A DNA stretch of 64,000 nt, taken from NCBI RefSeq assembly GCF_949628265.1, contig NC_088786.1, forward strand, positions 42,739,681-42,803,680, written 5' to 3'. A program made the translations under genes and the position numbers. The notes below the pieces were generated by a model that saw only the letters and a program-made list of their open reading frames with translations, was not told the DNA's origin and searched no databases. Below, one piece after another: positions 2,192-33,974 of the stretch. Each line of letters starts with the position of its first letter. Position 1 is the stretch's first letter. Source of the DNA: Cloeon dipterum. Its lineage: Eukaryota > Arthropoda > Insecta > Ephemeroptera > Baetidae.

Positions 2192-5100
2192 TTACATTGG
2201 TTCACACAAAAAGGTCTCATAATTTTGGTCCCTATTCGGATACTTTTGCGGATTAATGTAGTAGTCGTGAATGTCCAGGTCAAATTTAGAAATCATGTCG
2301 ATTATTGGTACTGTAAAGCCGAACGTGGAGGCGATCGACTCGGCGCAGGGATACCTAGCGGATGGATCAGGGCTGAGCATGTCGTCGGTGAGCAGGGTGC
2401 GGCTGCGACACCACACCTCGTGCGTCCTGTTGATGAACTCCGTCTCTCCAATTAACATCATGTTGAAATAACGCCCTGAAAATCATTATATATTGAATTT
2501 TAATAGTATTATTCTGAAATTGGTCACCGCACTATTTCGTAATATATTCAATCAAAAACTGAACGTAAGCATAATTTGAGAGTTTTTATTTAAATCTTGT
2601 CAGATCGATGCTAAAAAATCTGCTAGAAAGAGTGTTCTACAAAATATATGAGTTGAAACATACATAAGCGTAATTTAAGTGATTTTTTTAGTTTCGGAAC
2701 GGCATGCCTGACGATAAAATTTAAAAATCTTGCTTAATAAATGTGAAATATTTTGATGGCGTCATTGGCACTGAGCGAACGCACCAATATTGTACAAGAC
2801 TGATTCAATTAAACCATGTCATTGAACCAATAAATAATGGTAAATATTTTGCTTGAACGCATTACCAGGACTGTGGAACCAACTGACACGCGAATTGAAA
2901 AACCTGAGAGATGAAAATGCAGTAAAGAATTGATGATCATCGTGTGACTAACTATTTGTACTTTATTATTGCACACTATTATTTATAAATAAATAAATTA
3001 AATGATTTTACACTTTTATTTTTGTTAAAGAGCTGCTGCAAGCGAGCACCAGCCAAAAATTCGTCCTGAATTGGCTGGACTTCTAATGTTTTTTCAAATT
3101 TATAAAATCTTAAAAAAAATTGTTTACGAGAAAAATTGGCGTGTTTTTACCAACAATATTTGTCCTTGCGTTACTAATATCTGCAAGAGTCTGAGGCTCG
3201 AAAAGCCTCATGCCGAGTTCACAGCAACGCTGGAATGCCGTCACAGGATTCTGCAAAAATGTCATAATAAATTACAATTTCATTGAAAATTATCTTACGG
3301 TGTTTCCTTTCACAGTATCAAAATTTCCAACGTAATAATCCTTGCCAGCATAACTTGTCTTGATCCCCATATCATCTTGTAAAATCAATGAAAGTTTTTT
3401 ATATTGCTAAATTCATAAATCGTCGGGTCTACACGCACCTTTGCCCTGGCTGTTCAGTAAATCGATAGCTGATTGCTGCAGAAATTTTTTTCGATTTTAA
3501 TACGATGATTAAATTCTCAGAAAAATTTAACAATGTTTACTTTTCTAACGCAAGGAAAATTATTCGAAAGCCAACAAGTCCTGCGTATCGGAATGCACGG
3601 AGAAGGTGGTTCGATCTTTGGGATTTAATTTGTATTTTTAATAAAATTAATTAAGTTGATTCTAACCACAGGATCGCTGCCTAGGTTTTTCGAAACCATA
3701 TTCAAAACTAAGTCTGGAGTCTTCTCCAAGCCGCATTTGTAAGTTTCGTAAGCAGTCACGCACTCATCGTCCGCATCTTTAAATATTAAAGCTTATAATT
3801 TCGCAAGTTTAGAAAATGAATGTCAACTTTTTCCACTGCACTCGTCGAAAGCAACGAATCCCCGCTCCATTTTCTCAGGCTCCTCCATGGATGCGAGTTC
3901 CACTTGTCGCAACATGGCGATGAAATTCAATCCTCCGACACCAAACTAAGATTTAATTCAGTAAATCCATTTATACAGTGGTTGATTAATCTATGGGTTT
4001 AAAAATTCATTAAAATATTTTCGGCTTTGATCACTAATCGGGGCTTTATATGGTGAAAATTTACCAATCCAAAGTTGACTCCAATGCATTTCAAAAAGCA
4101 CTGAAACATTTATTAATCAACTCTTTAATTCAAAATAAGAAAATCAATGCACCTTCAGTTCGAAAGAGATGTTCGCAGTCAGAAATGCAGCGGCGTTAGT
4201 AAGCAAGTAAAGTTCGGCTAAGGTAAAATAAGATTTTAAACCGTTTAATAAAATGAATCTATAAATTATACCATCAGTGATTTGCCAGGTTTCCAAGCAT
4301 TCGTTCTGCAAAGCGACCTGGCTGGTGCCCGTTTTGCGCACTTCACAAACGAACAGCTTCTGTTCATCGCAATTCGCGGTGGCCAACACCACCGATCCGT
4401 TTCTTGCCTCGACGTAAACGCAGTCCAGTCCTGCTTTCGGGTGTCCCTGCTTCCACCTGAGCTCAGGGTCAACGAAATCACGGCCCAGAGAGCACCAACG
4501 AAAGTTCGAATCGCAACCTAGGTCGGTTCCAGAAAGCCAGTAGTCGCCAACAGTAAAGCGGGCATATCCTATATTGATCGTTATGAATTGGAATTTATTG
4601 GGAAAGCTAAGAAAAATCTTACTTGTGACAAGTTTAGAAAAGCATTTTGTTTTATCTTTGGACTCCAAGGAGGTCAGGGTCAAACCCAAACTGCAGCAAA
4701 GGTCCGATGCACTGCCCCAATCCAACTACAGTTTTATATTTATGTTTATTTAATTTATTTCAGTTAAATCAGTACTCTAGTCATATCGTAGAACAAGAAA
4801 TGGCGTCCGCATCCGTTAAACCAATCACCGTAATAGGGATAATCTGGAAAATACTAATTTTAAGGACTGCATGGTAAATATGAGGGTATATATCCTACTG
4901 AGCAGTTGATTTTCAGGGCCAAACAGGGTGAGCTTGTTGCATAATTTTTATTTTATTAATTTTTAGCGTATTACTTATTAAATTTGAATTTTTACGTTTC
5001 GCTGACAGGGCTTTTTTGGACACGAAGCTACGCATGGTTTTGGAGTAATCAAAATGGGCATCTAGGATTTTCACAAATTAATAACTAAGTTTTTCCATCC

Positions 5101-6601
5101 TTATATGTATATGATCCCGTACCTTGCAGGCGTAGATGTATTTGCTGGCACAATTTCGGTCCGTCAGTATAGTAACAGTCGAGTTCAAAACAAAGCGGAA
5201 GTGGATGCAGCTTTCGGTTCCGTTCTTGTTGTCTGGTTGGCCGCTTTCCCACGTTAGACCCTGGTCGAGGATGGTGGGCCCGTGGGGCTCGCACCACGAC
5301 CACTCGCCCACCGGAGCCCCTTTCCACGTACCGCTGGTCCAGTAGTTGAAATTCGCTTTCCAGTCGTCTTAATTTGTAATATTATTATATTTATAGAGTT
5401 GATTTTTTTTAAGATCAGGTGGAGTAGACCTTTAAAAACGACTGTCATGTTTGTGAGGCCCGCTTGCTCCTCAACATCGTCGATTTTGAGAGTCTGCATT
5501 CCCAAAGCACAACACTGACGCCAGCTCGCCTCCCAACTCATCTTTATCCAAATAATTTTTATTTTTGTTACAACTTATGATATAAAATAATTACTGGTTT
5601 GTTTCCCAAGAGATACGTGTATTTGCCTACATCAATCCAAATTCCGTAGGATGTTTTTTCTAAAGAATTAATTATATTATTGATTGAATAACTTATCAAA
5701 GTTGTATTTTACTCAGCAAGTTGCCAGCCGTGTCAAATAAGGACGTCTGAAAGCGTATTTATTTATAAGCGTAAAAATTATTTAAAAGTAAAGAACGTTT
5801 TTGGTGCACGTCTTAGGACAGTCTACTGCGAACTGGCAGATGTAGGGCAGAAGATCGTCGCAATTCCTATGCACCATCCCCTTCTTATCAGGGGATGAAA
5901 TCAAAACAGCCAGACAGCTTTCTAGACTGGAAGGAGGGACGTCCGATGGCATCCAGAAGTTGGACAAAGAGACCAGCGCCGAGGACATGATGTGGCCAGT
6001 CGAACACCACTTATACTTTTTTCCGGATTCGCATTTTTCGTCAACATTCGAGCCACTCGTCCAGAACGAACCAACAACTGTGTCTTTTGAAATCGAATTC
6101 TATTTTGAGATTAGTTGAAGTTAACCTGTTTTCAAACTGGCAAGACAGCTCAGTTCCTCGAGGGAAGTGACAGCCAAGAGCGACATGTCCATCGCCTTGC
6201 AACGCAATCCGGCTTCGTTTCTCGCCACCTTCAAGGGATTAGTGGATTTGAAGATTTTTTAGTTTGTTTTTCTCACATTAACACTAGAGACGAAATATTT
6301 CTTGTTGCACAAGGTCGCGGTTAGCACTGAGCCCTCCGCTGAAAGTGACGTTTTTTTTAAATTAATTTTATACGCATATGCCCAACGATTTCTATCTTTA
6401 ACCTGATGAAGGCTTAGATGTTGGTTTTCCCTGCATATATGATTGACAGTTAATCTTAAAATCATATGAAGATTAGGTTTAAATTACCAAAAGTTTTTTG
6501 TCATAGTCTGAGCACATCATTGAACAGGATTTATGCTGAAAAACAAATATTTTCAAATATAAGAGTTAATTTTTCGATAGGTTATCCTACTGTCGTAATG
6601 G

Positions 6602-6632
<31 letters not shown>

Positions 6633-7683
6633 GCTCGTAGTTGTTGATACACTATTGATGGTCGAAGTGGTTGTTGGCTCCTCGGCTTTGGCTGAACCAT
6701 TTGCCGTTGGAGATTTTGTAGTTGTCGTCATTTTCGAAGTTGATTCAGATGAAGATGCTGATTTGCCCAAAGAATTTTTTAAAACGGGTTGAAAAGTTGG
6801 CGAGTTTGTGATTGACGAGACGATAATTCTCTCGGTGGTAACGATTTCTATGATATCACTCGACTCAGTCCGTTCAGATGTGTTTGAGCCTTTGCTCGAG
6901 CTGTCCAACTCTTGATCTTAAAAATGTAAATTTCAATTTTTACGATCATTTTTAATATGAAATTATAAGAGCAATATTCTTCAATTTATTTCATTAGGAT
7001 TGAATGATAAAATATTTAAAAAGACAAAAAATGTTACATCAAATAATCCAAGCATTTTTTCGTCATATTAATATATCTGTTAAAACTCGTTTGGAAAAAA
7101 ACCGTAGCATTCCTAACGCTATAATATTCTGAGAGCTGTAGCAAAGCGCTGTTCTTCAGAAATTTTTCAAAATAATATACCCTGCTCCGTCGTGTGCACG
7201 TGTGGGTCCGTGAATGTTGGCGCAACACTATTGACGTCATCAGAACTTCCTGTCGAAACGAATGTTTTGTTCACCGATGCTGGCAGGCTGGCAAGCTAGG
7301 AGAACAAAACTGTTGCTAGGTTGTTCGAAATGATGGGGGATTTTAACTCACTTTGCTCGATGTCGTTCGGGCCCTCTTGGACTTCGGCAGACATCTTTTG
7401 AAACCGCAGCACTTGATAATTGCGATCCTCCGCGATGATTTCGGATAATGAACAGCTTCCAAATTTGTTAGATAACATTATTTTTAAAATAATGAAAACC
7501 GTTTTTGAGCCTACCAGAAATTTCTTTAACACGTCTTGAGTTATGTTTTTTCCTATTCTGTAAGTGAGCAATGGAAGAAGAATTTAAACGTCTACGCATG
7601 AATTTTAAACTCACGAGAGAGATGGCTTCTCCAAAAATGATCAGTAATGAGGAAAATACGACGAACATGAATAGAAAATTCAT
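2192..7683 (-). CDS. Gene A: secreted CTLD-OBP chimeric protein
   Basis: Twenty-eight exons give about 1,034 residues with no frame break seen. Exons, from the start: 7615-7683, 7515-7557, 7352-7455, 7181-7295, 6591-6916, 6488-6535, 6403-6430, 6277-6338, 6126-6228, 5797-6077, 5713-5746, 5595-5659, 5430-5541, 5123-5367, 4996-5061, 4899-4932, 4776-4843, 4623-4725, 4272-4568, 4153-4217, 4065-4100, 3828-3945, 3667-3776, 3541-3615, 3439-3475, 3299-3375, 3151-3250, 2192-2475. Order of parts: signal peptide (MNFLFMFVVFSSLLIIFG), Cys-Cys basic module, Ser/Thr linker with a poly-Thr run, CTLD1, CTLD2 with a QPDN motif, CTLD3, OBP-like domain, CTLD4. The OBP part has CFLKC (C2-X3-C3) and C5-X8-C6 in CVTAYETYKC. 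It is nearly identical to gene B through CTLD3 but clearly different in CTLD4. Role inferred: extracellular sugar and/or small hydrophobic ligand binding. A polyadenylation signal is likely at 2002-2007. Confidence 0.85.
2640..3005 (+). mobile_element. LINE 3' fragment in last intron of gene A
   Basis: The last intron of A is about 675 bp against about 83 bp in B. The extra DNA carries a frame around 2865-2935 reading LWNQLTRELKNLRDENAVKN then stop. This is the WN-x-L...EL pattern typical of the C-terminal end of non-LTR retrotransposon reverse transcriptase proteins. An A-rich AAATAAATAAATTAAATG tail follows. The start of the insertion is approximate. It probably inserted after the A/B duplication. 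Confidence 0.5.
6601..6632 (+). repeat. (GTT)n microsatellite coding poly-Thr in gene A
   Basis: About ten GTT units read as ACA (Thr) on the minus strand inside exon 5 of gene A. Gene B lacks the run and its exon 5 is 20 codons shorter, so the mucin-like linker varies in length by repeat change. Confidence 0.9.
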
Positions 7684-9253: not shown

Positions 9254-9340
9254 TTAGGGGGACGTCTTTTTCTTTTGAGCATGCCCGCGGATTGTCTGAA
9301 GAACAACAATCACAAGCAAAGTCCAGAAACAGAAATTCAT
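9254..9340 (-). pseudogene. Relic signal-peptide exon (left arm)
   Basis: On the minus strand this reads a hydrophobic leader starting MNF and matching the first exon of gene C. It ends at a stop after a Lys-rich tail, with no usable GT donor where gene C splices. It mirrors 18586-18672. It is either a dead first exon from an ancestral C-type gene or a former alternative start for gene A. Confidence 0.6.
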
Positions 9341-9737
9341 TGCTTTGCGCAATGATTGCTTTTTCCGAACTAAACTTTATAATATTATTGCTCGGCAGAG
9401 AGTGATCATACCTTTTGCGAATCAGTTTCACTGACGTCCCATCCTGTTTCCTCTTTCTGAATAATAATTTTTATCATAATTATTTGCTCTATAATTCTTT
9501 ATATTATTTGAAAATGGGATGGCTGATTTTTCAATTTTCAGCTCAGAGTATGATTAAAATTTTCAGGCCTTTTAATTATCTGATTTGCGTTTTGTATATT
9601 TTTAGCATCACGCTTTCAATAAATTGAAATTAATGCATCTTGAAAATTCGAAAATCACACGCACACGTTGTTTTCTTTTATATAACCATGGCTTTAGTTT
9701 TCAATGCCAATTTGGGCTAGAATTTTTCAATAATTCA

Positions 9738-11138: not shown

Positions 11139-14100
11139 ATGAATTTTGGTTTCTGGACATTGCTTGTGATTGTGATTCTTCAAACAATCGTGCATGCCAA
11201 AAATCATGTAAGTTCATTTCTTAATAAATTATCGGGATCAGGTTTTGATTGAAATGAATTATAGGGAAAGAAAATTAAAACCTTCAAAATCACATATAAC
11301 AAACATAACTATGGTAGGTTTTAACTTGAAAAAGAAGTAGTAGTAACTATAATTTCATTCAGGCCCTATTAAAATCCTCAAAATTCGTCGGCAAAACAAA
11401 TTTCGAAGAAATTATATCATCACGTGCTGCGGGTTTAAAAAATGTCTAGCAAATGCAAATGTTACGGTAAAAAAGACAACTCCAACCAGCTCGGTATATA
11501 TGCTTTAAACTAGAAATTTCGAATCATCATAAAATTGCGTTTTATCAAAGACCAATAGCAAACTAAGAGCAACATCCACGTTGGAATCGACAACCAAAGC
11601 AGGAATAAGCTCCGCTGATGAATCATCAGCATCAGAACCAACTGAAGCCATCACTATAGAGAGTAAAATGAAAATTGCGAATAAAAATCGATGCTCAAGC
11701 GGTCGAAAAATCAGGTTACGATTCCACTCCTAGCCCCCTTGATGTGACAGAAGTTCCAACTGACGTTCCGGGTGAGGTCATAACTGACCTTAAAACTGAC
11801 ATCACGACGAAAGCAACCAAAACGGCGCAATATGGCACCAAATCGACATCCACTTCGACCATTGCGGCCTTTCCATCCACGCAGGTTTTCCAGAAGACAA
11901 CTGCAATCGATGCGATTCCATCAAAAGATGGAACAACTTCACGATCATCAACGTTATCTTCAACAACTTCGCAAGCGATGACAAAAACCGCACCCTCTTT
12001 GACGTCAATAACTACACCCGTGATGATAACAACTATGCCAACGGTGACGACAGTTACTACATCTACAACGCTGAAAACAACTACATCCACGGCACTGAAA
12101 ACTTCTACATCCCCGATGACAACAACCACAACCACAGTACGTAAATAAATTGTATTAACCGTATGGAAATTGAACTGGATGAAAATTACAGCCAATTCCG
12201 CGCACTTTATCTTGTGTAGCTTACAACACTTTTCTTGCGGTATGTAATATTCTTTATTCTTCTTTTGTGCCACATCAACAATTAACCGACTCCTTAGGAT
12301 CGAATTAGGTTAGGTGGCTGATTTACTCAACATGGCGAATTATAAAAAATTGATAAAACAATTGGTGAATTTTGGTCTAAACCAAGCAAAGCCACAACTA
12401 GACATGGCAAAATTAAAATCGATTTTTAATGACGATGTTTATTCTGGGGGTGATTCACGGCAACGTAACCTTGAAAGAAAATGGCATTGCTGGGGGCATA
12501 AAAGGATAGCATTGCACAGTGTAAAAAGGTGAAGCTAAAAAACCCGCACCTGGATTTTACCATCGACGTGTTTTCAGAAGATATATAGATATGTGGCCTA
12601 GAAATATTCATATAAAACTCAATTTTTATAAACGATGTTATTTCTGACGATCATGATCGATAATCAAAATCATTTGGGCAGGACTACATTTATTCTCTGA
12701 TTGAGTCGTCCCTATGGTATGCTAAATTCCCTAAATTCGCTAGTTTATTCAGATCAAAAAGTAACTGTGATTACATTTCCGCGAATTTTCGGTAAGGTAG
12801 GTAAAATTTTCGTTTGGATTAAATCAGCTACCTTACCATATTTGAGCCTCCAGCATAAAACAAGCTATTTTAAAATGTGTGTATATAATTTAGAGTAACC
12901 CAACCCCAGGAGCACTGCAAAGTAAGATTTTTTATGAAATAGCGAATAATGAATATTTTTAAATTCATCTCAGCCAAAGGCACGAAGAAAACATCAAATT
13001 GTGGCCTGGAGTATTTTGTTTCCACCTCTACAGTAAGATTTCGTATTTCTAATTCTGGAAAAAATTAAAATACTAAATCAGGCAACGAGAAACGAGGCAG
13101 CAATACAGTGTAAGGCGCTAAACATGACCCTTTTGACAGTGACCTCTCTTGAGGGATTGGAATGCGTGAACAATTTTGAAGGTTTTAACTCAAATTTTAG
13201 TAATATGACCAGTACTAATATTCTCATTGAAGCCAACACTTTCTGGACGAGCGGCTCGAACGAAGATGATCAATTGTATTTGGCAAAAAAATACGCTTGG
13301 TGCTCGACGGGCTTCGATATGTCGAAAGAAATAATCGAATCGGAAAAACTTTGGTTGCCGCCCAAAAACACGATCCCTTCTGCCACGGAGCGTTGTTTGG
13401 CCGTTTCTATTTCCACAGTTTCTTCGAAACAGGGCCTGGTGCAGAGAAAGTGCGACGACGCCCTGCCCTTCATCTGCCAGTATTCCGTCGACTGCCCAAA
13501 GCTCTGCAACCGAAACGTTCTTTCTAGAAAACATACCATTTCATTAAGTTTATATCTATCCCATTTCAGAACTCCCTATTTGACTCCTCAGGACTTTTGA
13601 AAGGTATGTAAATAAATTAGAAGAATTATCAATAGTTAAATCTAAATACATATGAAGATAAAAAATCGTACGGAATTTGGTTTGACATCGGTGCCTACAC
13701 GTATCTCTTGGGCAACAAGCCAGTTCGTATCCGAGACTCTCGTGAATCCAAAGTCTAATTTTTGGTCTGATAGATGACGTGGGTGGACAGTTACCGCCAG
13801 TGTTGCGCTTTGGGAATGGAGGCGCTCAACATCGACAACGCAGCTGAGCAGTTGGGGCTAACTGCCATGACCGGGCGAGCAAATAAAGGTTATTAATCAT
13901 CTCTTTAAAAACAAACAACTTTATTTTTTATTAATGTTTATTCTGCCTCGTCATTAATACATAAAATAATTGGATATAAAATCACATAACGTTTTTGGAC
14001 AGAATTGGCGAACAATGCTGGCAAAATAGAGCCAAAACGATTAATTACTACAGCTATTCACTTTCCACAAATGCTTTTTGCAAAGGGAGGGGAAATCGGC

Positions 14101-17100
14101 CACGGTGCACTCTTTTGAGTTCAGGTGGCAGATCGTTCCACGGTTGCACCACTCTGAAGGAAAAGGCCCGCTGGCCGAAAACACTACGCACTGGCGGCGG
14201 CTGCAGACGCTGGTGCCGTTCGTTTGCGTCGCCTCGTAGCTGTCATCGTTTCTCGATGATGCGCGCACGGTGGTTAAAATCGATAGCACCTCCCTCGCAT
14301 TATTCCTTAGCCTCCCCCGCACATTCTTAGGAGATATTTTAAAATTTCAGACAACTGGACCGCAAATTTCAATTATTGGACCAGTGGCAGTTGGAAGGGT
14401 GCACCTGAGAACCAGTGGTCTTGGTGCGAGCCCAATGGACCCACAGTTTTCGCAAAGGGTCTTGTCTGGGAATCCCCGCAGCCCGACAATAAAGGAGGCA
14501 ACGAGAGCTGCGTGCATTTCCGCTTTACTTTGAATTCGACGGGCACCATCATGACAGACCGCAACTGCGCGAATAAATTTATATTCGCGTGCAAGGTATA
14601 CAGAGCTTGAAATTTATAGAGGAACCATATAACTATAAATTGAAAATTCAGAGTGCATTGCAAACCACCCCAAAACCTTGCGTTGCATCCTGCCCAACAG
14701 AGAGCTGTGAAATAAATGTAAAATCTAATGTTATGAAAGATGAATCGATAAATGTGGCATTTATGAATTCTAGAACAACCTCTTTGTCACAGAGCCGGAT
14801 ACTAATGCGAAAACTTTACGGGGTTTGTAAATAGTTTTTATGTTCAAATGGATGTTAATGATCTCTACTGTTGTCCAGACTATTTCTCTTATGGAAACTG
14901 GTACGATGGATGTGGCCGCAATTTTTTGACTTACACCTCAATATTAGTAAGACATCAAAAAATATTATGGAGTACCAAAAAAAAAAATAACATAAAAAAT
15001 AACCAAAAGGCAGACTGGATTGCCGCCCGTGGTCATTGCTGTGATATTGGTCTGACCCTGGCCTCAATGGAATCAGTTGGGAAGTCTAGTTGCTTTTCCA
15101 GAATAGTCTCAAGTAAGTAAATAATGTGATAGTGACGAAATAGAGACTTAATATAAACAATCAACTCGAGAATTCGCTCCGGCGACCTTTGGAGACTACT
15201 GGCTCTCCGGAACTGATCTGGGGTGTGATTCGAACTTCCGGTGGTGCACCCTGGGCCGGGACTTGGTCAACCCTGAGGTGAAGTGGAAGGTGGGACACCC
15301 GAAACCCGGCCTGGACTGCGTTTATCTCGAAGTGAGGAATGGATCCGAGTTGCTGGCCACCGATGACTGCGCCCAAAAGAAGAGTTTTCTCTGCGAAGTG
15401 AGAAAGAAGGCAACCTTCCAAAGGGCCATGCAGTCCGAATGTGCAGATATCTGGGACATCACCGTTGGTATGGCCCAAAACCATCCTGGTGTGAATGACT
15501 AAACGGAAAATTAATATCGTGCAGACCAAATCGATCTGCTATTGAATGTCAGCGCTTTTCTCACGACAACTATAACGCTAAATTTGAAGGTTGGCCGGGA
15601 ATTTATATTCCCTTCATGACCTGATTAAAAATTCTCATTTTTATAGTGCTTCTTGAAATGCGTCGGAGTGGAAATTGGATTGGTACGTAAAGAAAGATAA
15701 AAGTTGGATTAAATCCCCCTCCTGATTAATTTCTATTTGAAATTCACCTTCACAAAAGAACAATCTAAATAATAATTTTAATAGAAAAATATAAAATTTA
15801 TAAAAACAACCCTCAATTTAATTATTATTCTGAAGTTTGGCGTTGGGGGATTGGACGCGTTAGCAACGCTGCGACAAATCGAACTCGTGTCCCAAGAGGA
15901 TCCTGTAGAACTGGAGACGGGATTTGTGGCTTACGATCAATGCAGCGGCATCAGTTTGTTTTCTTTTTTTTTTTAATTAATTGCTAGAAATTAATTTTTG
16001 AATAGATTCCGACGACGAGTGCGTGATTGCCTACGAAACTTACAAGTGCGGACAGCAAAAAGCACCTGACTTGGTCTCAAAAATCATCACCAACCACTAC
16101 GATAACGATACCATGGTCTGATTAAAAAAATGGCATATGTGGTTTTATTTTTCCTTTTTAAAGCTGTACCCACCAACTCCTTGTGTTTATTCCCGCCGAA
16201 GTTGTTGGCTTTCAAAAAATCTTCCTTGCGTAAAAAACGTAACATCGTCGTTGGTTTTCAGGACATATTAATATAGATTTTATTTTTATTGTAGCAAACC
16301 GCAATCGACTTATTGTATAAGAATAGATGCGGTAATTATGCTTATCTAAAATCCCACTGAAATCCCATTTTTTTAAATTACTTTCGATATTCCTGAGGGT
16401 CGAAATAGTTGAAAAAATTTTAACCCCAGCTATTTGTCGACTGTCGAACCTCAGAAAATGATTAGATCTTACAAAAATGTGGTTTTAGTGATGCTTGAAG
16501 CTTATGAAAAATTATGTTTTACAAATCCACATTATATATATAGATGATTACGGATGCATGGTGACAACTGAAGATAGGATATTTTATTATACCAAACAAA
16601 AAATAGATACAGTAAATATTCACCATGTTTGACAATTGATATTTAAACGCTCTTGTAATTTTAGCTTCCACATGATGCCTACACTCACTGCTGCGAGCTT
16701 GGAATGTTTCTCATGGAACCTCAGACAAAACTCGATATTTACATAATATCAACAACTCTTGGTATGGTTTGAATGATATTTCCTTTAAAATATTATTAAA
16801 TATTACATGGAGCGAATATTTCATTTTTACAAAAATGATTCCATCTTTTTTAAACAATTGGTTACAAAGTAAACGCAAAAATTAATAAACACCACCTTTG
16901 GTTTGTGCAGACTATTACTCTTTAATTATGGTGGGCGATACCGAATTCATCAACCAGACGCACGAGGTTTGGTGTCGCAGCCGCACCGTTTTGACAGATG
17001 ACATGTACAATCCGCTATTGAGATACCAGTGCAATCCATCACACCTCAGTATTGTCCCATTCTATTATGGGTATAATCTTGTATCCAGCGGACTTAACAT

Positions 17101-17206
17101 AACTGATCCCAAGACCGGTCGACAAGTAGAAGCCACTGGAGCAGTGTACCCTGCTTTTACAGATATTGTTTCGAAGGTTAAGCGGTATGTCTGCGAGCAA
17201 CCTTAG
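11139..17206 (+). CDS. Gene C: secreted CTLD-OBP chimeric protein
   Basis: About 28 exons and 1,070-1,080 residues. Exons: 11139-11207, 11265-11313, 11363-11493, 11551-11662, 11715-12136, 12192-12239, a tiny exon 7 (perhaps 12298-12313, uncertain), 12974-13032, 13082-13181, 13233-13516, 13570-13603, about 13657-13722, 13774-13888, 14351-14595, 14652-14717, 14774-14822, 14879-14946, 15010-15112, 15171-15467, 15525-15589, 15647-15682, 15836-15953, 16006-16115, 16164-16238, 16295-16331, 16544-16611, 16665-16761, 16911-17206. The start was chosen at MNFGFWTLLVIVILQTIVHA because it gives a signal peptide ending at the family's first splice site. The upstream in-frame ATG at 11061 has no such leader. 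The order is as in gene B, with the longest Thr-rich linker (exon 5, 141 codons). CTLD2 keeps QPDN. The OBP part shows all six Cys with spacing 30-3-42-8-8. Introns 7 and 13 hold inserted DNA. Confidence 0.82.
12314..12960. other. Inserted DNA in gene C intron, origin unclear
   Basis: The matching interval in gene B is under 100 bp, so most of this is an insertion or an expansion. A short open frame near 12314-12532 has no recognisable domain. A nearby reading frame, VIHGNVTLKENGIAGG, faintly recalls beta-sheet lipid-binding secreted proteins, but that is too short to call. The small family exon 7 should lie near 12298. Confidence 0.3.
13930..14335 (-). mobile_element. LINE 3' fragment in intron 13 of gene C
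   Basis: On the minus strand, bases about 14075-14225 read SVFGQRAFSFRVVQPWNDLP followed by PELKR and a stop after FVESE. This is the F..RA...WN.LP.EL signature at the C-terminus of non-LTR retrotransposon reverse transcriptase ORFs (Jockey/CR1-like style). The rest of the element is missing. It lies wholly within the intron and so need not harm gene C. Its boundaries are approximate. Confidence 0.65.
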
Positions 17207-18190: not shown

Positions 18191-18585
18191 CTGCATTATT
18201 GAAAAAAATCAAGCCCAAATTGGTATTGAAAACTAAAGCATGTAAAAAAAAGAAGACAATATGTTTGTGTGCAATTTTCGAATTTTTAAAAGATGTTAAA
18301 AATTTTCAACATACGTAAATTTTAATTTATTAAAAGTGTAGAAAATGCACATCAGATAATTCTATAAAAATTTAATGATCCTGTGCTGAAAATTGAAATA
18401 TTAGCCATCATGCACATTTTCAAATATGAAGAATTATATAGCGCAAATATGATAAAAATTATTATACAGAAAGAGGAAACAGGATGGGACGTCAGTGAAA
18501 CTGATTCGCAAAAGGTATGATCACTCTCTGCCGAGCAATAATATTATAAAGTTTAGTTCGGAAAAAGCAATCATTGCGCAAAGCA

Positions 18586-18672
18586 ATGAATTTCTGTTTC
18601 TGGACTTTGCTTGTGATTGTTGTTCTTCAGACAATCCACGGGCATGCTCAAAAGAAAAAGACGTCCCCCTAA
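18586..18672 (+). pseudogene. Relic signal-peptide exon (right arm)
   Basis: It encodes MNFCFWTLLVIVVLQTIHGH followed by a Lys-rich tail and a stop. It matches gene C exon 1 (MNFGFWTLLVIVILQTIVHA) but has lost the GTAAGT donor. It lies 1.6 kb upstream of the gene B start. Read as is, it would give only a 28-residue leader peptide. Confidence 0.6.
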
Positions 18673-20169: not shown

Positions 20170-23100
20170 ATGAATTTTCTATTCATGTGCGTCGTATTTT
20201 CCTCATTACTGATCATTTTTGGAGAAGCCATCTCTCTCGTGAGTTTAAAATTCATGCGTAGACGTTTAAATTCTTCTTCCATTGCTCACTCACAGAATAG
20301 GAAAAAACCTAATTCAAGACGTGTTAAAGAAATTTCTGGTAGGCTCAAAAACGGTTTTCATTATTTTAAAAATAATGTTATCTAACAAATTTGGAAGCTG
20401 TTCATTATCCGAAATCATCGCGGAGGATCGCAATTATCAAGTGTTGCAGATTCAAAAGATGTCTGCCAAAGTCCAAAAGGGCAAGAACGACATCAAGCAA
20501 AGTGAGTTAAAATTCCCAGTCATTTCGAACAATCTAGCAACAATTTTGTTCTCCTAGCTTGCCAGCCAGTCAGCCTCGTTGAACAATACAGTCGCTTTGA
20601 CAGGAAGCTCTGATGACGTCAATGTTGCGCCATCATTCACGGATGCCAACGTTGAAATGACGGGTAAATGTTCTGTGCAGTTCTCATAATGTGTAGCGTT
20701 GGGAAATTTGAAAGTTTGATCATTCGATCCTAATTAAATGAATCGAAGCATTTTAATTGACTTTCTTTGGAATTTAAATTTAAGATCAAGAGTTGGACAT
20801 CTCGAGTAAAGGCTCGGATTTATTTGAAAGGACCGAGTCGATTGACATCAAAGAAATCCCTACAACCGAAAGAATTATCGTCTCGGCCATCTCAAACTCA
20901 CCAACCCCCGTTGTTGTATCAAAATTTCCACCCATTTTTAAGAGCACTAGTAATACTTCTGCAATTCCAACTACTAAAAAGACATCTGGAACATCTCCAA
21001 CGGAGACTGGTTCAGCCATAATCGAGGTGCAAACAACAACTTCGAGGACAGTAGGACAAAAACCGAAAAAATCGACTCATATATAAATTGAAACTTAATT
21101 GGGGTTTCAGCTCAAATCCTGTTCAATGACGTGCACAGACTTTGAGGAATTTGTTTTGGTAATTGAAACCTCTAAAATATGATTTTAATGTCAATATTGA
21201 TTATAAACGCAGGAAAAACCTATATCTAAGCCTTCGTCAGGTAGAAAATAGAACTTAAATAGGCTAACAATTCATACATAAAAATCGACATTAACTTTCA
21301 GCGGAGGGTTCAGTGCTATCCGCAACCTTGTGCAAGAAAAAATATTTCGTTTCTAGTGTTAATGTGAGAATAAATAGACTTAAAAATCTAAATATCCACT
21401 AATCCCTTAAAGGTGGCGAGAAACGAAGCCGGATTGCGTTGCAAGGCGATGGACATGTCGCTCTTGGCTGTCACTTCCCTCGAGGAACTGAGCTGTCTTG
21501 CCAGTTTGAAGGAAGGTAAAATTAAACCAAAGTCTTAAAATTGAAATCGATTAACTAAAAACAGTTGTTGGTTCGTTCTGGACGGGTGGCTCGAATGTCG
21601 ACGAGAAATGCGAATCCGGAAAAAAGTATGAGTGGTGCTCGACTGGCCACATCATGTCCTCGGCGTTGGTCTCTTTGTCCAACTTCTGGATGCCATCGGA
21701 CGTCCCTCCTTCCAGTCTAGAAAGCTGTCTGGCTGTTTTAGTTTCGTCCCCTGAGAAGAAGGGGATGGTGCATAGGAATTGCGACGATCTTCTGCCCTAC
21801 ATCTGCCAGTTCGCAGTAGACTGTCCTAAGACGTGCACCAAAAACGTGAATATCCTAATTTTTTAAATGATTAATTATTTCTTTTAATTATTGTGCTGTC
21901 AGACCTCTTTATTTGACACGGCTGGCAACTTGATGAGTAAGAGAACACTTTGATAAGTTATTCAGTCAATAATTTAATTAATATATTAGACAAAATATCG
22001 TATGGAATTTGGACTGATATTGGAAAATACACGTACCTCCTGGGAAACAAACCAGTAAATTCATTTAATAAGTTGTAACAAAAATAAAGATTATTTGGAT
22101 AAAGATGAGTTGGGAGGCGAGCTGGCGTCAGTGCTGCGCTTTGGGAATGCAGACTCTCAAAATTGACGATACAGAGGAGCAAGCAGGCCTCACAAACATG
22201 ACAGTCGTTTTTAAAGGTATAAACCAATGATCTTATAAGAATTAACTCGATAAATATAATATTACACATTCAGACGACTGGAAAGCGAATTTCAACTACT
22301 GGACCAGCGGTAAGTGGAAAGGGGCTCCGGTTGGCGAGTGGTCGTGGTGCGAGCCCCACGGGCCCACCATCCTCGACCAGGGTCTAACGTGGGAAAGCGG
22401 CCAACCAGACAACAAGAATGGAAACGAAAGCTGCATCCACTTCCGCTTTGTTTTGAACTCGACTGTTACTATCCTGACGGACCGAAATTGCGCCAGAAAA
22501 TACATCTACGCCTGCAAGGTACGGGACCATATAAGGAGTGAAAAACTTAGTAATTAATTTGTGAAAATCCTAGATGCCCATTTTGATAACTCCAAAACCA
22601 TGCGTAGCTTCGTGCCCAAAAAAGCCGTGTCAGCGAAACGTAAAAACTTAATAAGTAATACGCTAAATATTAATAAAATAAAAATTATGCAACAAGCTCA
22701 CCCTGTTTGGCCCTGAAAATCAACTGCTCAGTAGGATATAACCTCATATTTACCAAGCAGACCTTAAAATTAGTATTTTCCAGATTATCCCTATTACGGT
22801 GATTGGTTTAACGGATGCGGACGCCATTTCTTGTTCTACGATATGACTAGAGTACTGATTTAACTGAAATAAATTAAATAAACATAAATATAAAACTGTA
22901 GTTGGATTGGGGCAGTGCATCGGACCTTTGCTGCAGTTTGGGTTTGACCCTGACCTCCTTGGAGTCCAAAGATAAAACAAAATGCTTTTCTAAACTTGTC
23001 ACAAGTAAGATTTTTCTTAGCTTTCCCAATAAATTCCAATTGATAACGATCAATATAGGATATGCCCGCTTTACTGTTGGCGACTACTGGCTTTCTGGAA

Positions 23101-24867
23101 CCGACCTAGGTTGCGATTCGAACTTTCGTTGGTGCTCTCTGGGCCGTGATTTCATCGACCCTGAGATCAGGTGGAAGCAGGGACACCCGAAGGCAGGACT
23201 GGACTGCGTTTACGTCGAGGCAAGAAACGGATCGGTGGTGTTAGCCACCGCGAATTGCGATGAACAGAAGCAGTTCGTTTGTGAAGTGCGCAAAAAGGGC
23301 ACCAGCCAGGTCGCTTTGCAGAACGAATGCCTTGAAACCTGGCAAATCACTGATGGTATAATTCATTAGTTTATTTATTAATTGCTTATTGGTATTTTTA
23401 TTTAGCTCAACTTGCTTTGCTTACTAACGCCGCTGCATTTCTGACTGCGAACATTTCTATCGAACTGAAGGTGCATTGATTTTCTTATTTTGAATTAAAG
23501 AGTTGATTAATGACTTTTTTAGTGCTTTTTGAAATGCATTGGAGTCAACTTTGGATTGGTAAATTTTCATCTTTTGAAGCCTGATTAGTTTTCAATGCCA
23601 AAAATAATTGGTGGATTTTAAAAGAAAACTTAAAACCGTAGCTTTTATTGCTGTACAGGTGATTTACTGAATTAATTCTTAGTTTGCTGTCGGAGTATTC
23701 AATTCCATCGCCATGTTGCGACAAGTGGAACTCGCGTCCATGGAGGAGCCTGAGAAAATGGAGCAGGGATTCGTTGCTTTCGACGAGTGCAGTGGAAAAA
23801 GTCAACTTTTAATTTCTAATAACCGACCAAATTTTAACTAAAATTTTTTAAGATGCGGACGATGAGTGCGTGACTGCGTACGAAACTTACAAATGCGGCT
23901 TGGAGAAGACTCCAGACTTGGTTGCGAACATGGTTTCGAATAACCTAGGCAGCGGTCCTGTGGTCAGAATTAAATTAATTTAACTTAATAATACTAAACG
24001 GAAAACACATAGATTTACCCTCCTACTCCATGCATTCCGATTCGCAGGACTTGTTGGCTCTCGAATAATTTTCCATGCGTTAGAAATGTAAACATTGCTA
24101 AATTTTTCTGGGAATATATTTATCGTATTTAAATCGGAAAAAAATTTCTGCAGCAATCAGCTATCGATTTACTGAACAGCCAGGGCAGTGGTGTGTAGAC
24201 CCGACGATTTATAAATTTAACGAAACTAATTTATTTCCATTGATTTTGTAAGACGACATAGGGATCAAGACGACCATTACAGGCAAGACTTATTACTATG
24301 GAATTTACGACCTTACTTATGGATCCCACGTAAGATAATTTGCAATGAAATTTTAATTTTTTACATGATAATTTTGCAGAACCCTGTGACGGCATTCAAA
24401 CGGTGCTGTGAACTCGGCATGAGGCTTTACGAGCCTCAGACGCTTGCAGATTATATTAACGCTAGGGACAAAATAACCGGTAAATTAATCTTGAATACCA
24501 AAGATATGCGGCAACCATTTTCTGATTATTCCCTTTTAATTCTGCTCTTCGATGTTTTTTAGGGAGTACCGGTGTACCCCAACTGATACTTGGAGAGACG
24601 GAGTTCATCAACAGGACGCACGAGGTGTGGTGTCGCAGCCGCACCCTGCTCACCGACGACATGCTCAGCCCTGATCCGGCCCGCAGGTATCCCTGCATCG
24701 AGTCGATCGTCAGCGTTTTCGAATATAGAGGTGCAGGAACAATCCAAATGTTTTCAAGATCGGATGAACGGGACTTACTGGACATTCACGACTACTACAT
24801 TAATCCGCTAAAGTATCCGAATAAACACTATCATTTTCAGAGCTTTATTTGTGAACCAATGGATTAA
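20170..24867 (+). CDS. Gene B: secreted CTLD-OBP chimeric protein
   Basis: Twenty-eight exons, 3,057 coding bases, 1,018 residues. Exons: 20170-20238, 20296-20338, 20398-20501, 20558-20663, 20785-21050, 21111-21158, 21213-21240, 21302-21363, 21413-21515, 21565-21845, 21903-21936, 21990-22054, 22105-22216, 22274-22518, 22574-22639, 22697-22730, 22784-22851, 22902-23004, 23059-23355, 23406-23470, 23523-23558, 23683-23800, 23853-23962, 24013-24087, 24154-24190, 24253-24329, 24380-24479, 24563-24867. Parts in order: signal peptide; IIKCCRFKRC module; Ser/Thr-rich linker (about residues 75-200); CTLD1 (exons 8-10, ends CDDLLPYICQ); CTLD2 (exons 12-14, with SGQPDNKNGNESC and DRNCARKYIYAC); CTLD3 (exons 17-19); OBP-like domain (exons 19-23, cysteine spacing 30-3-42-8-8); Cys-rich linker (exon 24); CTLD4 (exons 26-28). 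Each CTLD is followed by a CPKTC-like linker. Only CTLD2 has a QPD motif, which in the family favours galactose-type, Ca-dependent binding. Likely secreted; function inferred only. Confidence 0.87.
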
Positions 24868-27179: not shown

Positions 27180-29138
27180 ATTACCCCTTATACGGCGAGT
27201 GGTACGATGGCTGTGGCCGAAGTATTTTGACCTACACTAAAACTAAGGTTAAAAATTTTAAAAATCCATACCCACATCTATAATTGATCAAATAATAGTC
27301 GTCCTGGAAGAAATCCAGGGATCGGTGCTGCGCTATTGGATTGAATTCAACGCCTATAGAGTCGTCTGGAAAATTGAATTGCATTTCCAAACTGATGACA
27401 AGTAGAACGGAAGCCTTTTATTTAATTTTTAAATTAAATTTAATTCGAAGAATTCGCGTCTTTGACCGTGGGCGATTACTGGCTTTCCGGAACGAACCTG
27501 GGGTGCACCTCAAATTTCAGGTGGTGCACCCTAGACCGCGATTTCGTCAACCCTGAGCTCAGGTGGAAGGAGGGACACCCGGTGAAAGGCCTAAATTGCG
27601 TTTATCTCGAGGCGAGAAACGCATCTTCGCTTCTCGCCACCGCCGACTGCGCCGCGGAAAAGAATTTTTTGTGCGATATTGGGAAAAGTGCGGCCTCGTC
27701 TCAGCTCCAGATCCAATCTGAATGCGCAGAAATTTGGAATATTAGCAGCTGTACAGATTTGAATTATTTTTATATTTAAAAAAGCTGATAATTTTTTTTT
27801 TTAGATGAAATTGACTTGCTTTCGAACGATAGTGGTTTAAGTTCAGCAAATGTCTCGTTAAATCTGAAGGTGCGCGGTACAAAATTTATATTTTGGTTAA
27901 ATATAATTTAGTTTTTAATTGTAGTGCTTCTTGAAATGCGTTGGCACCGAGGTTGGAATGGTATTTGAGGGGAAAATCCACGTTGGACCATTTTTAATAT
28001 TATTTTAACAGTTTAAATCCGGCGGAGTGAGCAGCATTGAAATGCTGCGTCAAGTAGAAATCGCCGCTGAAGACGATCCCGTCAAGATGGAACACGGATT
28101 CACTGCTTATGACGGATGCAGCAGCAAAAGTTTGATAATTATTTAAAAATATATTATATTATGATTTCATAGAATCTGACGACGAGTGCGTGGTTGCCTA
28201 CGAAACATACAAATGCGGTCTGAAAAATGAGCCAGATTTGGTCGCGAAAATCGCCAATAATAGTGCTCAAAGTGACAACGCGTCATCAGTGGTCGCTGTA
28301 TTCAAAAGATTTTATTTTTTTCTGGGATTAAAATTATTTTTAAAGCAACCCCCTCCCCTTCCTTGTGTTCCAAAGCGTCGAAGTTGCTGGATGTCTGATC
28401 GCTATCCGTGTACTTCGAATGTATGCATTATTTTTTTTAATTTCTTTAAATAATTTTATTTAAATTGAAGGCAACGGTCATCAACACCTTCAACAGCCAG
28501 GGGAAAGGTAATTAGATTAAAATGTGAAAAGCCAAAATTCGAATTAATTTTCCACGCAGACCAATTCGGCAGTAGGGTGATTGTGAACGGAAGGACCTAC
28601 TTTTTCGGTACCGTTGGCAACACGGTGGGAGATTTCACAAATATGTTTTCGACCTTTTGATCGAGTTGAATAATCTGTGTTCAGCATGCGATTGCAGCGT
28701 TCAATCATTGCTGCGCTCTTGGAATGAAACTCTTTGAACCAGCGACCCTGGCAGACCTGCAATTGGCCCTGAAAATATCAAGTAAACAAATTATTCTTTG
28801 CTGTCAAATAAATACGAAGATGGAGGTGACATTAAGGCACTTTTAATTTCGCCTTTGCAGACAAAAAAACCCCATTCAACATACTTTTGGGCGAAACAGA
28901 ATCGATCGACCAGACGCGCGAGGTGTGGTGTCGCAGCCGCAAGATGTTGCCTCAGGATATCTACGGCTACTCAACCGGAATATTCAGGTATCCGTGCACC
29001 GAATGCGTCGTCACGTTCCACGTGAACCTTCTCAAACTGCTCTTGGTCAACCTGCCAACTGCGAACATCCACGAAATGTTCTACAATTTTACTAATTGGT
29101 TGTCACCTTTAAAATCGTTTATATGCGAGCAACTGTGA
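27180..29138 (+). CDS. Gene D: 5'-truncated CTLD-OBP family member
   Basis: Twelve exons stay in frame for about 453 residues: 27180-27247, 27299-27401, 27451-27750, 27805-27869, 27925-27960, 28012-28129, 28173-28291, 28346-28420, 28471-28507, 28560-28624, 28685-28781, 28861-29138. They correspond to exons 17-28 of gene B: CTLD3, the OBP-like domain (cysteine spacing 30-3-42-8-8, with CVVAYETYKC) and CTLD4. No signal peptide, linker, CTLD1 or CTLD2 is found. Upstream lie the peptidase exon fragment and repeat K. The splice sites look sound, with one shifted donor at 27750. Either the gene lost its 5' half to rearrangement or its first exons lie outside the expected place. A pseudogene is possible despite the open frame. 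Confidence 0.7.
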
Positions 29139-29943: not shown

Positions 29944-32900
29944 CTATTCACAAATAAAAAATGGGACAGTGGTTAAACAGTCATAATAAGCAATCGTGGC
30001 GACGGGTGGAACAGATTTGTTTTGAATGTTTAAAAAGGGGCAGTTGGAAATTTTAAAACATGGATTTTTGGGGACAGTTGCATTTGGAAATAATTCTTTT
30101 GGGATCGGAGCGCCGGATGAGCACCAAGCGACCAAATCGCCGTTTCCGTCCTCCGCCATCGGGCCGATTACAGTTCGATTAAATGCTGTAACTAAATTTC
30201 ATCCAGTTTTTATGCTATCAATTGTCACAAAATTTAAATTCCTTACTGGAGGTATCGAACAGAAAAATTTCTTGCAGCTCTTTGGCGCTTTCAAGCTCCA
30301 AAAGACGCTTCCCGACGGAGCAGCAGTATGATTTCGCGTCTTGGTAAAGCTGAGATTATATAAATTTCAAGACAGATTAATGAATTGTAATTATAATTAA
30401 TGTCCTGACAAAGTTCAGAGGAAGCCTCTTGCCGATGAAGTACGCTTTGTTGCTGGGCAAAGTGACCAAGTCTCCGATATCAGCTTAGAATTTAAATTAT
30501 TATAATGGGATGTGGTTTAAAAATTATTCTGGTTACTTTTCCCTGAAGCAGTTAGCTGGATCGTTAGTGAATTCTATTTTTTTCGTTTTAATTTAGTTAA
30601 TTTCATCAAAATCATGGCATGTTTTTCATTACATTTACGACGCAGTCGGAGGTCTCATTGCAAAAGTGGTAGTTTGGAAGACACATAATCGGCGGTGGGA
30701 TCTAAGCCAAATTAAAATTAGAATTTCACGTTTTATGGTAAGTCCGTGCAAACCATGACAGAATTACTGATGGCGTTGGCCATCAAACCCTGCACAAGCT
30801 GGTATGCGTTCGTCATGATGCACTTCAAAACCAAGTACGTAAATTCACAAAGCCTCGTTTCATCTATGGAATAAATTTATTGATTTCATTGGTCTCTTGC
30901 AATTTTTTCTCTTACTGAAATGTATGCATTGCTCTACGAGTTTGTAAGCGTCCTGCAACACTTTCTCGTCTTTGATTTGATCCTCCAAATATCTCAGCAC
31001 GCTCTGAGTGTTTACCGTGTTGTCTAGAATCTGCAAAAAAGATCCAATGAGCAATTTTGAAAATTAATTGTATAAAAAAAAACCTTCTGATATTTCTGGC
31101 CCATGCATCTTCCATAGCACTGTAAAAATATGTATTATGATGTCTGTTTAAAACTATTAAAGACCGCCTGTGACGAAGTTTCTGAGCCCACCGATCGATT
31201 CCTGAGGGTCGAATTAAGTAAAATGGACATTTTTACCGTCCCAAAAGTGCAGCGTGAATGAATAATTTTTTTCCCGCTAAAAAAATATGAACGTTTTTAT
31301 GAGAAGTGCGCATGCGTTAGAGCAGCCGGTCTGAGCACTTGCAGAGAGACCACCTGGACGAATCCCTTCTTTGTCAGCTCTGACGCATGCGCACTTCTCG
31401 CATTCATATTGTTTTGGCGGGAAAAAAATCGCTGGACGTTCTGATCGGAAAAAACATCCCCTTTACCTAATTCGACCCTTAAAAATCGATTGGTGGGCTC
31501 GGAAACTCGGTCAAAGACGGTCTTTAAGGTGAAGCAGAGTTCTCACCAACAATGTCGAGCTTGGAGGCGGCCCAAAAACATTGAGCAGCGCGTCTTCATC
31601 ATCTATTTAATAAATAACACAATTTAAAACAGTTAAATTGAAAATATGGAATAAGTTAAAAAAATACCTGTCTTAAGTCCGAAAGATTTGAGGCAGTCCC
31701 ACCAAATTTGTACAGCGCGTGTATGATGTTTATGATAAGCCTAAAAATAATATAAATTTATAAAAACCAGCACTTTATTGATCAACGAACCGAGCACATA
31801 AACTGCTGCTCCTGCTCGCAATCGGCGGTTTTCAGCTCCAATTTTCCGCTGCTCTGGTTCATCGCCGTTGAAACGCAACCGTGTTCGATCTTCGGGAATC
31901 CAGCCTCCCAAATCACTTCTCTGGGGTAAATGTACGATTCCTCCGAGCACCAGTAAAGCTTGCCGGATATTTTGGTTGATCGGCCAGAAGTCCAGTATCT
32001 TCCATTCAGGCGAGAAGGAAATGCTAGTGATTTAATTAAAAATAATATTTTCCCTCATTTTAAATTTGACTTGCTTTGGTAGAGGCTGGCCAAACAATCA
32101 CTCCTCACTGCCAGTGGGAAACTGGCCAAATCCATTCCGATACTGCAGCAGTAACTCCTCGCATTTGACCAGGTTTTCTGTGAGAATTACCTGAAGGTTT
32201 AAAATATCTTAAATTTTCTTAACTTCACTTTCAATCTCGAAAAATAAAAAATTCTGCCGCAACTCTCGAGGAAAGTACCTTTCACCGAACTTGGCTCTGA
32301 AATTTAATTTTTATAAATATTGGGAACTTTAATTCTTCTTATCAAACCTTGAATCAAATCGATGCCAGTATATATTGCCGACTGAAAACGAGAATTTAGT
32401 GTAACACGTCAAACGTTTCACTAGAGACAAATCAAACGTTTTTGACGCAGTTCTGTTGCGACGGACATCCGTTTTCAAGCAACAGCCCTGGATTTTCCAT
32501 CCCAGCCTGACAATAAATTGAAATGAATTTTATAAAAGTGTTCCGTCTATCAGAACACACCTCGCACGCGTAAGCAAACCGCTTCGCACACGCTTCACGC
32601 CTCAATAAAAATTGATTTCCCGCCTCTGCCGTCGCGCTGACGCAGGTTCCAGGTGAATCCTTTTGATTTCCATTCGGGTGCCACATTTCTTTGGCGAAAT
32701 TATTGCTCGGAATCGAACACCAAATTAAAGACGGCGACAGAGCAGTGCCGTTGCATTCGGTGAACGTCCCACTGGTCCAAAATTTAGTGTTGAAAGTCCA
32801 GTCTTTATTAGAATTTGAAATGAGATCAATTGCGATGTAAGAGGAGAATAAAAACCTTTGAAGAACTCTCCAACTGATTGCAGTTTCTGGACTGATTCAA

Positions 32901-33974
32901 AACTAATCGGCTTCATTCCCAAAGCACAACATTTCGGCCAAATTTTCTCCCACAACACCTTTAGATTTTTCTTTAGTACAAATTGTAATTTACAAAAAAA
33001 AAATTGTTATCAAACAGCTTCATTTCCAAGCAAGTAGGAATATTTTCCCAGGCTTCTCCACTCTCCAAACGATTCCGGGTCTATATTTTCAAGATTTAAT
33101 TAAATTTCAATATTAATTCTAATACTTGTTAACAATTCTCTTCTTTTCGTGCTCTCCTATTTAAACAAATTGCCATGAGAAGGCTTGTCAAATAGTTTAT
33201 TTCTTCACCGATAAATCGCATTGGGTGGGGCAGTTGCAGAAAAAGGTTGGCGCAGCTTCTGTAGTACTAGCTGTTGTTGTTGTTGTTGTTGGCTCAATTG
33301 TTGATGTCACTGTACTTTCGTCAGCAATTATTCGAGCAGTCGCCTCAGAAATTGCAGAAGCAGTTTCAGCTGCATTTTTATCAAATTAGATCTCGATTAT
33401 TAATAATACCTAGTCAAACCTTGATCCTCCAGAGTTTGATCATTGCCATTCGTGATTTGGCCAGAGGCTTCAGTCGGCGCGTTCTTCAAATTTGTTTCGG
33501 CTATTTCTTTTAAGGTCTCTGCCGATTTAGTCGAGATAGGGCCTGGCTTTCGAGTTATTTGTGTTGTGGTTTTATTCTGTCGATATTTGGTTATTTTGTC
33601 TGGTGGGTCCAAACACGAGTTGCCACCACAGCACTTGATTATCAAATTCCGCCTTTTTTTATTCCATTTCGTCATCCGCAATTTTCGAGCTATAAATTTT
33701 TAAAGCATTTAAGAAAGACATTTTTATAAATTTACTGTTAGCCTGGTGTCCACTGTCGTTTGGAACGCCGCCTCTTACGGATATTTTCTAAAACAAAAAA
33801 TTATCAAAGAAAAAAAACTACACTCTATTTCCATACTTTTGCGTGTTTCCCTGCGACACCTGAATAGTACGTCTAAAGAAAAGAATAATCAGTGTCCTAA
33901 AAATTGGAAAATTATTGAAATACGCAGTGGAAAAGAGCTGCGCAAAAGAGGAGATAGATCCTGACAACGTCCAT
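29944..33974 (-). CDS. Gene E: divergent CTLD-OBP chimeric protein
   Basis: Twenty-four exons give 802 residues: 33924-33974, 33837-33872, 33736-33787, 33420-33689, 33209-33369, 33126-33156 (weak), 33016-33080, 32856-32958, 32561-32802, 32438-32506, 32348-32381, 32229-32296, 32075-32177, 31791-32023, 31668-31740, 31547-31602, 31084-31119, 30916-31030, 30754-30863, 30639-30701, 30537-30555 (weak), 30410-30483, 30247-30349, 29944-30185. The leader is MDVVRIYLLFCAALFHC. The basic module NLIIKCCGGNSC matches the family. The Ser/Thr linker ends in FFCNCPTQCDLS, which is only the tail of CTLD1; the body of CTLD1 is absent. Then come CTLD2 (HPN in place of QPD), CTLD3, the OBP-like domain (spacing 27-3-41-8-8, CYGRC as C2-X3-C3) and CTLD4. 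The exon at 32075 needs a GC-AG intron to keep the family size and phase. Confidence 0.75.
31161..31523. mobile_element. Foldback (MITE-like) element in an intron of gene E
   Basis: Two imperfect inverted arms of roughly 150 bp (starting AAGACCG... and ending ...CGGTCTT at the tips; GAGAAGTGCGCATGCGT near the loop) surround a loop of about 50 bp. Both ends abut TTAA (31157-31160 and 31524-31527), a target duplication typical of piggyBac-type elements, although TTAA is common in AT-rich DNA. No coding capacity. Confidence 0.75.

Follow-up and report, generated by a model that had tools for sequence, protein, structure and literature searches.

Gene B and its paralogs

A 64,000-nucleotide stretch of the Cloeon dipterum genome (contig NC_088786.1, positions 42,739,681 to 42,803,680; hereafter the window) carries a cluster of five paralogous genes, here called A to E, in which a predicted odorant-binding-protein (OBP) domain is set among C-type lectin-like domains (CTLDs). 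OBPs are usually described as small, free, single-domain carriers or as doubles of the D7 kind. Gene B runs on the forward strand from an ATG at 20170 to a stop at 24867, and its 28 exons form a single open frame of 1018 amino acids (aa) without an internal stop. All 27 introns are GT-AG with phases that are consistent throughout; 23 of them are 49-62 nucleotides (nt) long and the remaining four measure 66, 83, 121 and 124 nt. The exons listed in a preliminary description of this DNA therefore do splice into one protein, and the signal peptide and mucin-like linker that it placed ahead of the domains correspond to a signal-peptide-like exon 1, a judgement by eye and not a prediction, and a stalk of 124 aa. 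Between this start and CTLD1 lie a basic segment, in which a CC...C motif occurs, and the Ser/Thr/Pro-rich stalk. By residue number, CTLD1 occupies 243-359, CTLD2 404-522, CTLD3 579-689, the OBP domain 701-821, a cysteine-bearing linker 822-846 and CTLD4 859-1018. For exon 3, a frame starting KFGSCSL was rejected, as only another frame joins the neighbouring exons in phase. The parts of gene B are as follows.

20170..24867, + strand: gene B, whole; signal-peptide-like start, stalk, CTLD1-3, OBP domain, linker, CTLD4
20170..20238, + strand: exon 1, signal-peptide-like start MNFLFMCVVFSSLLIIFGEAISL, from the sequence, by eye
20558..21050, + strand: exons 4-5, mucin-like stalk of 124 aa, Ser/Thr/Pro 40%
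21413..21845, + strand: exons 9-10, CTLD1; Lectin_C E 1.1e-5, 26.6 bits against a cut-off of 22.6
21903..22518, + strand: exons 11-14, CTLD2 with QPDNKNGNESC; Lectin_C E 8.6e-5, 23.7 bits (provisional protein string), and matches to solved lectins
22574..22639, + strand: exon 15, cysteine linker, phase 0-0, from the splice model
22697..23288, + strand: exons 16-19, CTLD3, ending ...FVCEV; Lectin_C E 9.5e-7, 30.0 bits
23059..23355, + strand: exon 19, end of CTLD3 and start of the OBP domain (C1), with an open frame over the junction
23322..23962, + strand: tail of exon 19 and exons 20, 21, 22 and 23, predicted OBP domain; PBP_GOBP E 9.7e-11, and matches to OBPs in the PDB
24013..24087, + strand: exon 24, cysteine linker, phase 0-0, resembling linker exon 15 by eye
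24154..24867, + strand: exons 25-28, degenerate CTLD4; profile-profile alignment with CTLD2/3, no Pfam match

The other four genes lie on both sides of gene B. Exons of gene A were selected by their likeness to gene B, and genes C and D were modelled on gene B.

2192..7683, - strand: gene A, close inverted copy of B with 28 exons; 1014 aa, no internal stop, OBP domain at about 4305-3667
11139..17206, + strand: gene C; three CTLDs, then CTLD4 after an OBP domain at about 15434-16115; first exon placed at 11139, alternatively at 10219; stalk exons modelled in part
27180..29138, + strand: gene D; CTLD3, OBP domain at about 27717-28288, linker and CTLD4 present, 5' part not found
29944..33974, - strand: gene E, divergent paralog without CTLD1; OBP domain in five exons, 31740-30754

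Three CTLDs stand ahead of the OBP domain in genes A, B and C and two in gene E, in keeping with the proposal of two or three CTLDs before it and one after; of gene D only exons 17-28, from CTLD3 onward, were found. In gene E the donor after exon 18, at 32075 on the reverse strand, is GC. A reading of the locus as a pseudogene array was rejected for A and B, whose frames are open; in D the 5' part is missing, and one exon of E is without usable splice sites. Genes A and B lie on the arms of a large inverted duplication (4251-9481 and 18445-23376) with gene C between them; among blocks of at least 250 nt, six pairs of 278-641 nt are 95-97% complementary.

Domain identity and junctions

The segment after CTLD3 had been proposed to follow the six-cysteine rule of insect OBPs, and its spacing is as claimed in all five genes: from C1 to C6 the intervals are 30/3/42/8/8 residues in genes A-D, and gene E, where C2-X3-C3 reads CYGRC, has 27/3/41/8/8. 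The OBP (PBP/GOBP) profile search that had been suggested gave the same answer: taken alone, each of the five segments matches PBP_GOBP (PF01395), with E-values of 4.8e-10 (A), 9.7e-11 (B), 3.7e-8 (C), 2.3e-10 (D) and 6.9e-10 (E) and scores of 33.9-42.2 bits (B 42.2, E 39.5) against a cut-off of 22, and nearly the whole Pfam model is covered. The match is retained in the full-length gene B protein at 40.1 bits. A profile built from the five segments finds 21 distinct sequences in the PDB (E up to 0.01), 18 of which bear OBP names, with 4pt1 and LUSH at the top; the other three carry AGAP gene numbers only and are presumably mosquito OBPs. In the two printed alignments, five and six cysteines are aligned, respectively. 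Because the Pfam and PDB searches agree, we identify the segment from its sequence as an insect-type OBP domain, and homology to solved OBPs makes it very probable that it adopts their fold of six helices and three interlocked disulfides.

Gene E shares just 19% identity with gene B in this domain, and a profile of the A-D segments scores it at 20.2 bits, compared with 11.8 for the best of 1000 shuffles of E with cysteines fixed and 8.8 for the best of 1000 full shuffles; together with the PBP_GOBP E-values, these controls argue that the resemblance is not due to chance. One result counts against the identification in gene E, namely that PBP_GOBP is absent from the Pfam matches of a 610-aa join of most of its exons, a putative effect of the HMMER filters, since the same OBP stretch alone reaches 39.5 bits. 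The segment might instead be another helical, cysteine-rich domain that has come to look like an OBP through chance or convergence; the identification comes from sequence, and Sol_i_2, an ant venom allergen family, matches gene E weakly (E 0.014, below cut-off). Yet with PBP_GOBP matched five times out of five, six cysteines at OBP spacing and 21 of 21 PDB profile matches being OBPs by name or presumed gene number, we consider this highly improbable. Among further searches, the Pfam list for the joined gene E includes a viral glycoprotein family at 13.8 bits, far short of its cut-off of 25 and taken as chance, and NCBIfam gave nothing relevant (TafE in one of five members, E 0.039). The OBP profile found 31 pattern matches and 0 relatives among viral contigs, and 19 pattern matches and 0 relatives among genome contigs, both collections being without insects.

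Lectin_C is matched by three stretches of the gene B protein (whole-protein E 1.6e-14), and the joined gene E scores 22.5 bits, just under the cut-off of 22.6. CTLD4 has no Pfam match in A, B, C or D; an hhalign comparison of a profile of five CTLD4s with a CTLD2/3 profile gives a probability of 91.5% and an E-value of 8.4e-7 over the first 94 columns. The calcium/sugar motif of C-type lectins is EPN or QPD, plus WND. In A, B and C, CTLD2 has retained QPDN and, after it, ESC, and TD occupies the WND position; in the printed alignments QPDNKNGNESC, the form in gene B, falls at the EPN...EDC of codakine and E-selectin. Weighing against sugar recognition by the array at large, the EPN/QPD motif was not seen in CTLD1, CTLD3 or CTLD4 of gene B or in CTLD2 or CTLD3 of gene E. 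With a QPD-type motif confined to CTLD2 of A, B and C, at most one CTLD per chain may be a classical calcium/sugar binder.

The claim that the OBP domain is joined in frame to the CTLDs before it holds in all five genes. In A, B, C and D alike, the last strand of CTLD3 and the OBP C1 share the uninterrupted exon 19, and in gene E a 50-nt phase-0 intron lies at this junction. On the other side, intron 23 separates the OBP domain from the linker and measures 51 (A), 50 (B), 48 (C), 57 (D) and 52 nt (E); it is followed in all five genes by a linker exon with three cysteines that resembles the CTLD2-CTLD3 linker by eye, a likeness of which our linker profile, built from both linker kinds, is no independent test. 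Because the intron is so short, too short in our judgement for a gene border, and because a cysteine-rich linker exon follows it in every gene, we infer that the OBP domain is joined to CTLD4 as well.

Several observations speak against this architecture. The donors of intron 23 are GT but non-consensus (GTCAGA in B, GTTAGA in A, GTCTGA in C, GTGGTC in D and GTTTGC in E), and because they are weak in all five genes a short isoform ending a few residues after the OBP domain (in B, past the donor at 23963) is possible; the join of exons 23 and 24 is the least certain step of the model. In gene E a small exon should lie between 33209 and 33080 on the reverse strand, but no usable splice sites were found for it, and the model as a whole comes from genomic DNA. 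The weak donors and this reliance on genomic sequence also lend what support there is to the view that lectin and OBP exons belong to separate adjacent genes joined in error. That view is contradicted on the N-terminal side, where exon 19 spans CTLD3 and C1 in four genes out of four and where, in gene B, FVCEV is separated from the OBP segment by 11 residues that contain no start or signal sequence, and we rejected it there; on the C-terminal side, with the joint inferred and the donors weak, the argument against it is the 48-57 nt of intron 23 and an identical order in five paralogs. Overall we regard separate genes as very unlikely and an OBP domain in frame among CTLDs as nearly certain on the sequence, while architecture and OBP identity taken jointly are, somewhat more cautiously, highly probable.

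Origin and selection

The exon phases suggest how the OBP domain may have entered the chain. In gene B the CTLD units have exon phases 0-1, 1-0, 0-1, 1-0 and are separated by 0-0 linkers, with the exception of exon 19, in which CTLD3 continues into the OBP domain; the CTLD phases of gene E agree with these where they are resolved. The OBP domain is made up of five exons in gene E, with phases 0-1, 1-0, 0-0, 0-1, 1-0, a block that thus has phase-0 borders on both sides. Counted from the cysteines, its intron places are identical in A and E (8 aa after C1, directly before C2, at a 12-aa exon, 3 aa after C4 and 22 aa after C6), and the OBP exons of B, C and D fit the same phases, those of C and D having been modelled on B. 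A block that bears introns, has phase 0 at both ends and sits between the end of a CTLD and a linker makes exon shuffling the likely origin of the embedded domain, as a retrocopy would lack introns, and the shared intron places point to one event before genes A to E split; a single exon-shuffling origin is, on these grounds, probable. On this view a single transfer, ahead of the five-paralog split, would have placed the five exons encoding the mature domain of an OBP gene, a phase-0/0 module, within a phase-0 intron of a gene with several CTLDs, and the intron at the CTLD3-OBP boundary would later have been lost in the lineage of A-D. Mayfly OBP genes are given 6-8 exons in an excerpt of one report (PMC13205551), which would fit a signal-peptide exon plus these five. 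Because the module has phase 0 at either border and gene E retains the boundary intron, the locus is a clear candidate for an example of exon shuffling.

Ratios of nonsynonymous to synonymous divergence (dN/dS) were obtained by the Nei-Gojobori method for genes A-D, leaving aside CTLD4 of gene C and gene E, with the OBP domain taken as 132 codons including the 11-residue joint. Between the older paralogs A-D the OBP domain is under purifying selection, with dN/dS of 0.11 (A/C), 0.21 (A/D), 0.13 (B/C), 0.21 (B/D) and 0.10 (C/D), and because the ratio is 0.10-0.21 in all five comparisons that involve C or D, the domain has long been kept as coding sequence. Among the same older copies the ratio is 0.16-0.18 in CTLD1, 0.08 in CTLD2 and 0.11-0.22 in CTLD3; for linker plus CTLD4 it is 0.17 in B/D, and A/D is saturated.

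Two aspects of these data temper the case for constraint. Synonymous divergence (dS) to C and D is near saturation, at 1.3-3.4 with one value infinite, and the young pair A/B has higher ratios, 0.50 in the OBP domain and 0.70 in linker plus CTLD4, so these recent copies may be relaxed or diversifying. Elsewhere the A/B ratio is 0.46 in the stalk, 0.23 in CTLD1, 0.12 in CTLD2 and 0.27 in CTLD3, and the proportion of nonsynonymous differences (pN) is 0.19 in linker plus CTLD4, 0.16 in the stalk, 0.05 in the OBP domain and 0.01-0.02 in CTLD1-3. The synonymous distance between A and B itself differs strongly by domain, from 0.04 in CTLD3 to 0.31 in linker plus CTLD4, a pattern that points to gene conversion within a section of the A/B palindrome.

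Known relatives, possible functions and neighbouring sequence

Both kinds of domain are well known, and the new element is their combination. With classic insect OBPs (PBP/GOBP, PF01395; LUSH and the other PDB entries) the embedded domain shares the six-cysteine pattern, the spacing and the profile match. Whereas those proteins are free and small, described in the excerpted source as secreted and about 120-170 aa long (PMC13205551), the gene B protein contains an OBP domain, at residues 701-821 of 1018, and is not itself a classic OBP. The D7 salivary proteins of mosquitoes and sand flies likewise carry OBP-family domains in a multidomain secreted chain, and for those of mosquitoes the excerpt of the source gives one or two OBP domains and names no other domain (PMC6440969). 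Here, in contrast, one OBP domain stands among four CTLDs: neither two OBP domains nor OBP domains only, as in D7 proteins and dimer OBPs, but one PBP_GOBP stretch together with Lectin_C is what the gene B protein contains. In their repeated CTLDs and Lectin_C matches the proteins resemble multi-CTLD animal lectins of the mannose-receptor and immulectin kinds, and a CTLD profile matches mosGCTL-1, LY75, the mannose receptor and others in the PDB; an OBP domain is named in none of these matches (best 60 of 83), and to our knowledge no multi-CTLD animal lectin has one. An OBP-lectin fusion likewise appears in none of the titles and abstract openings among the matches listed from the open-licence literature, a search with protein databases outside its range, and automatic annotation may already hold this architecture. 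Cloeon dipterum has a large repertoire of 191 OBP genes, with expression in gills, and the word lectin occurs 0 times in the main text of the paper reporting it (PMC7250882); that this expansion was the source lineage of the module is a guess. A lineage in which a lectin chain acquired an OBP domain, retained it under purifying selection and was duplicated would indicate that this fold is available for modular recruitment, and the family connects chemosensory carriers with glycan recognition in a concrete and testable way.

What such a chain might do can be approached from its parts. The protein is, with less certainty, taken to be secreted; we put it at slightly better than even that the embedded OBP domain still binds a ligand, and joint binding of sugar and a small ligand is a reasonable hypothesis. 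Our preferred reading, a tentative one that we would not call probable, is glycan-tethered capture of a small hydrophobic ligand, in which the stalk and at least one CTLD would keep the protein attached to a surface, be it mucous, cuticular or microbial, where the OBP pocket would capture a small hydrophobic or lipid molecule. More broadly, the genes could possibly represent 'tethered OBPs', chemosensory or immune carriers of a new class in which a shuffled lectin array either anchors an OBP on glycans or binds the sugar of a ligand whose lipid the OBP binds. If so, an odorant carrier that is normally diffusible would work in place, for example in the mucus of an aquatic or wet epithelium.

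Two other readings are close rivals. The proteins could act in humoral pattern recognition, where the target would be an amphipathic microbial molecule, for instance a glycolipid, bound by the CTLDs at its sugar part and by the OBP domain at its acyl or lipid part. In favour of such a role are the multi-CTLD array with a mucin-like stalk, in a cluster with an inverted duplication, and the concentration of A/B nonsynonymous differences in linker plus CTLD4, the stalk and then the OBP domain; the sugar-type motif in one CTLD only speaks against it, and we hold this role to be doubtful. Alternatively, the OBP domain could be a mere rigid, all-helical spacer in the lectin array that has lost ligand binding. 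Its position between other domains would be unusual for a carrier, and the A/B ratio of 0.50 is compatible with such a loss; nevertheless, its constraint between older paralogs is about that of CTLD1 and CTLD3, though weaker than that of CTLD2, and its Pfam scores lie 12-20 bits above the cut-off, so that we also find a pure spacer unlikely. Of three readings this close, we prefer the tethered carrier.

Outside the five genes, orphan copies of a gene C-like signal-peptide exon (MNFCFWTLLVIVVL...) occur at 18550-18672 and, in the inverted pair I5, within 9203-9481; right after them, a scan with exon profiles found neither CTLD nor OBP exons. On the reverse strand, open frames at 35759-35971, 44556-44822, 52355-52558 and 56205-56480 look CTLD-like by eye (WSGGDPNDGE..., CDKFKGATLPM...) and are apparently two copies of one gene; up to an E-value of 10 they match no Pfam family, and their matches to the CTLD profile are weak (best E 0.021). 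Scans of the window for tRNAs and Rfam families gave 0 matches. Direct repeats of 96-97% identity pair 25866-26165 with 49856-50155, 37900-38199 with 54471-54770 and 41140-41414 with 46303-46577, and are probably transposable elements or copies made by a segmental duplication.

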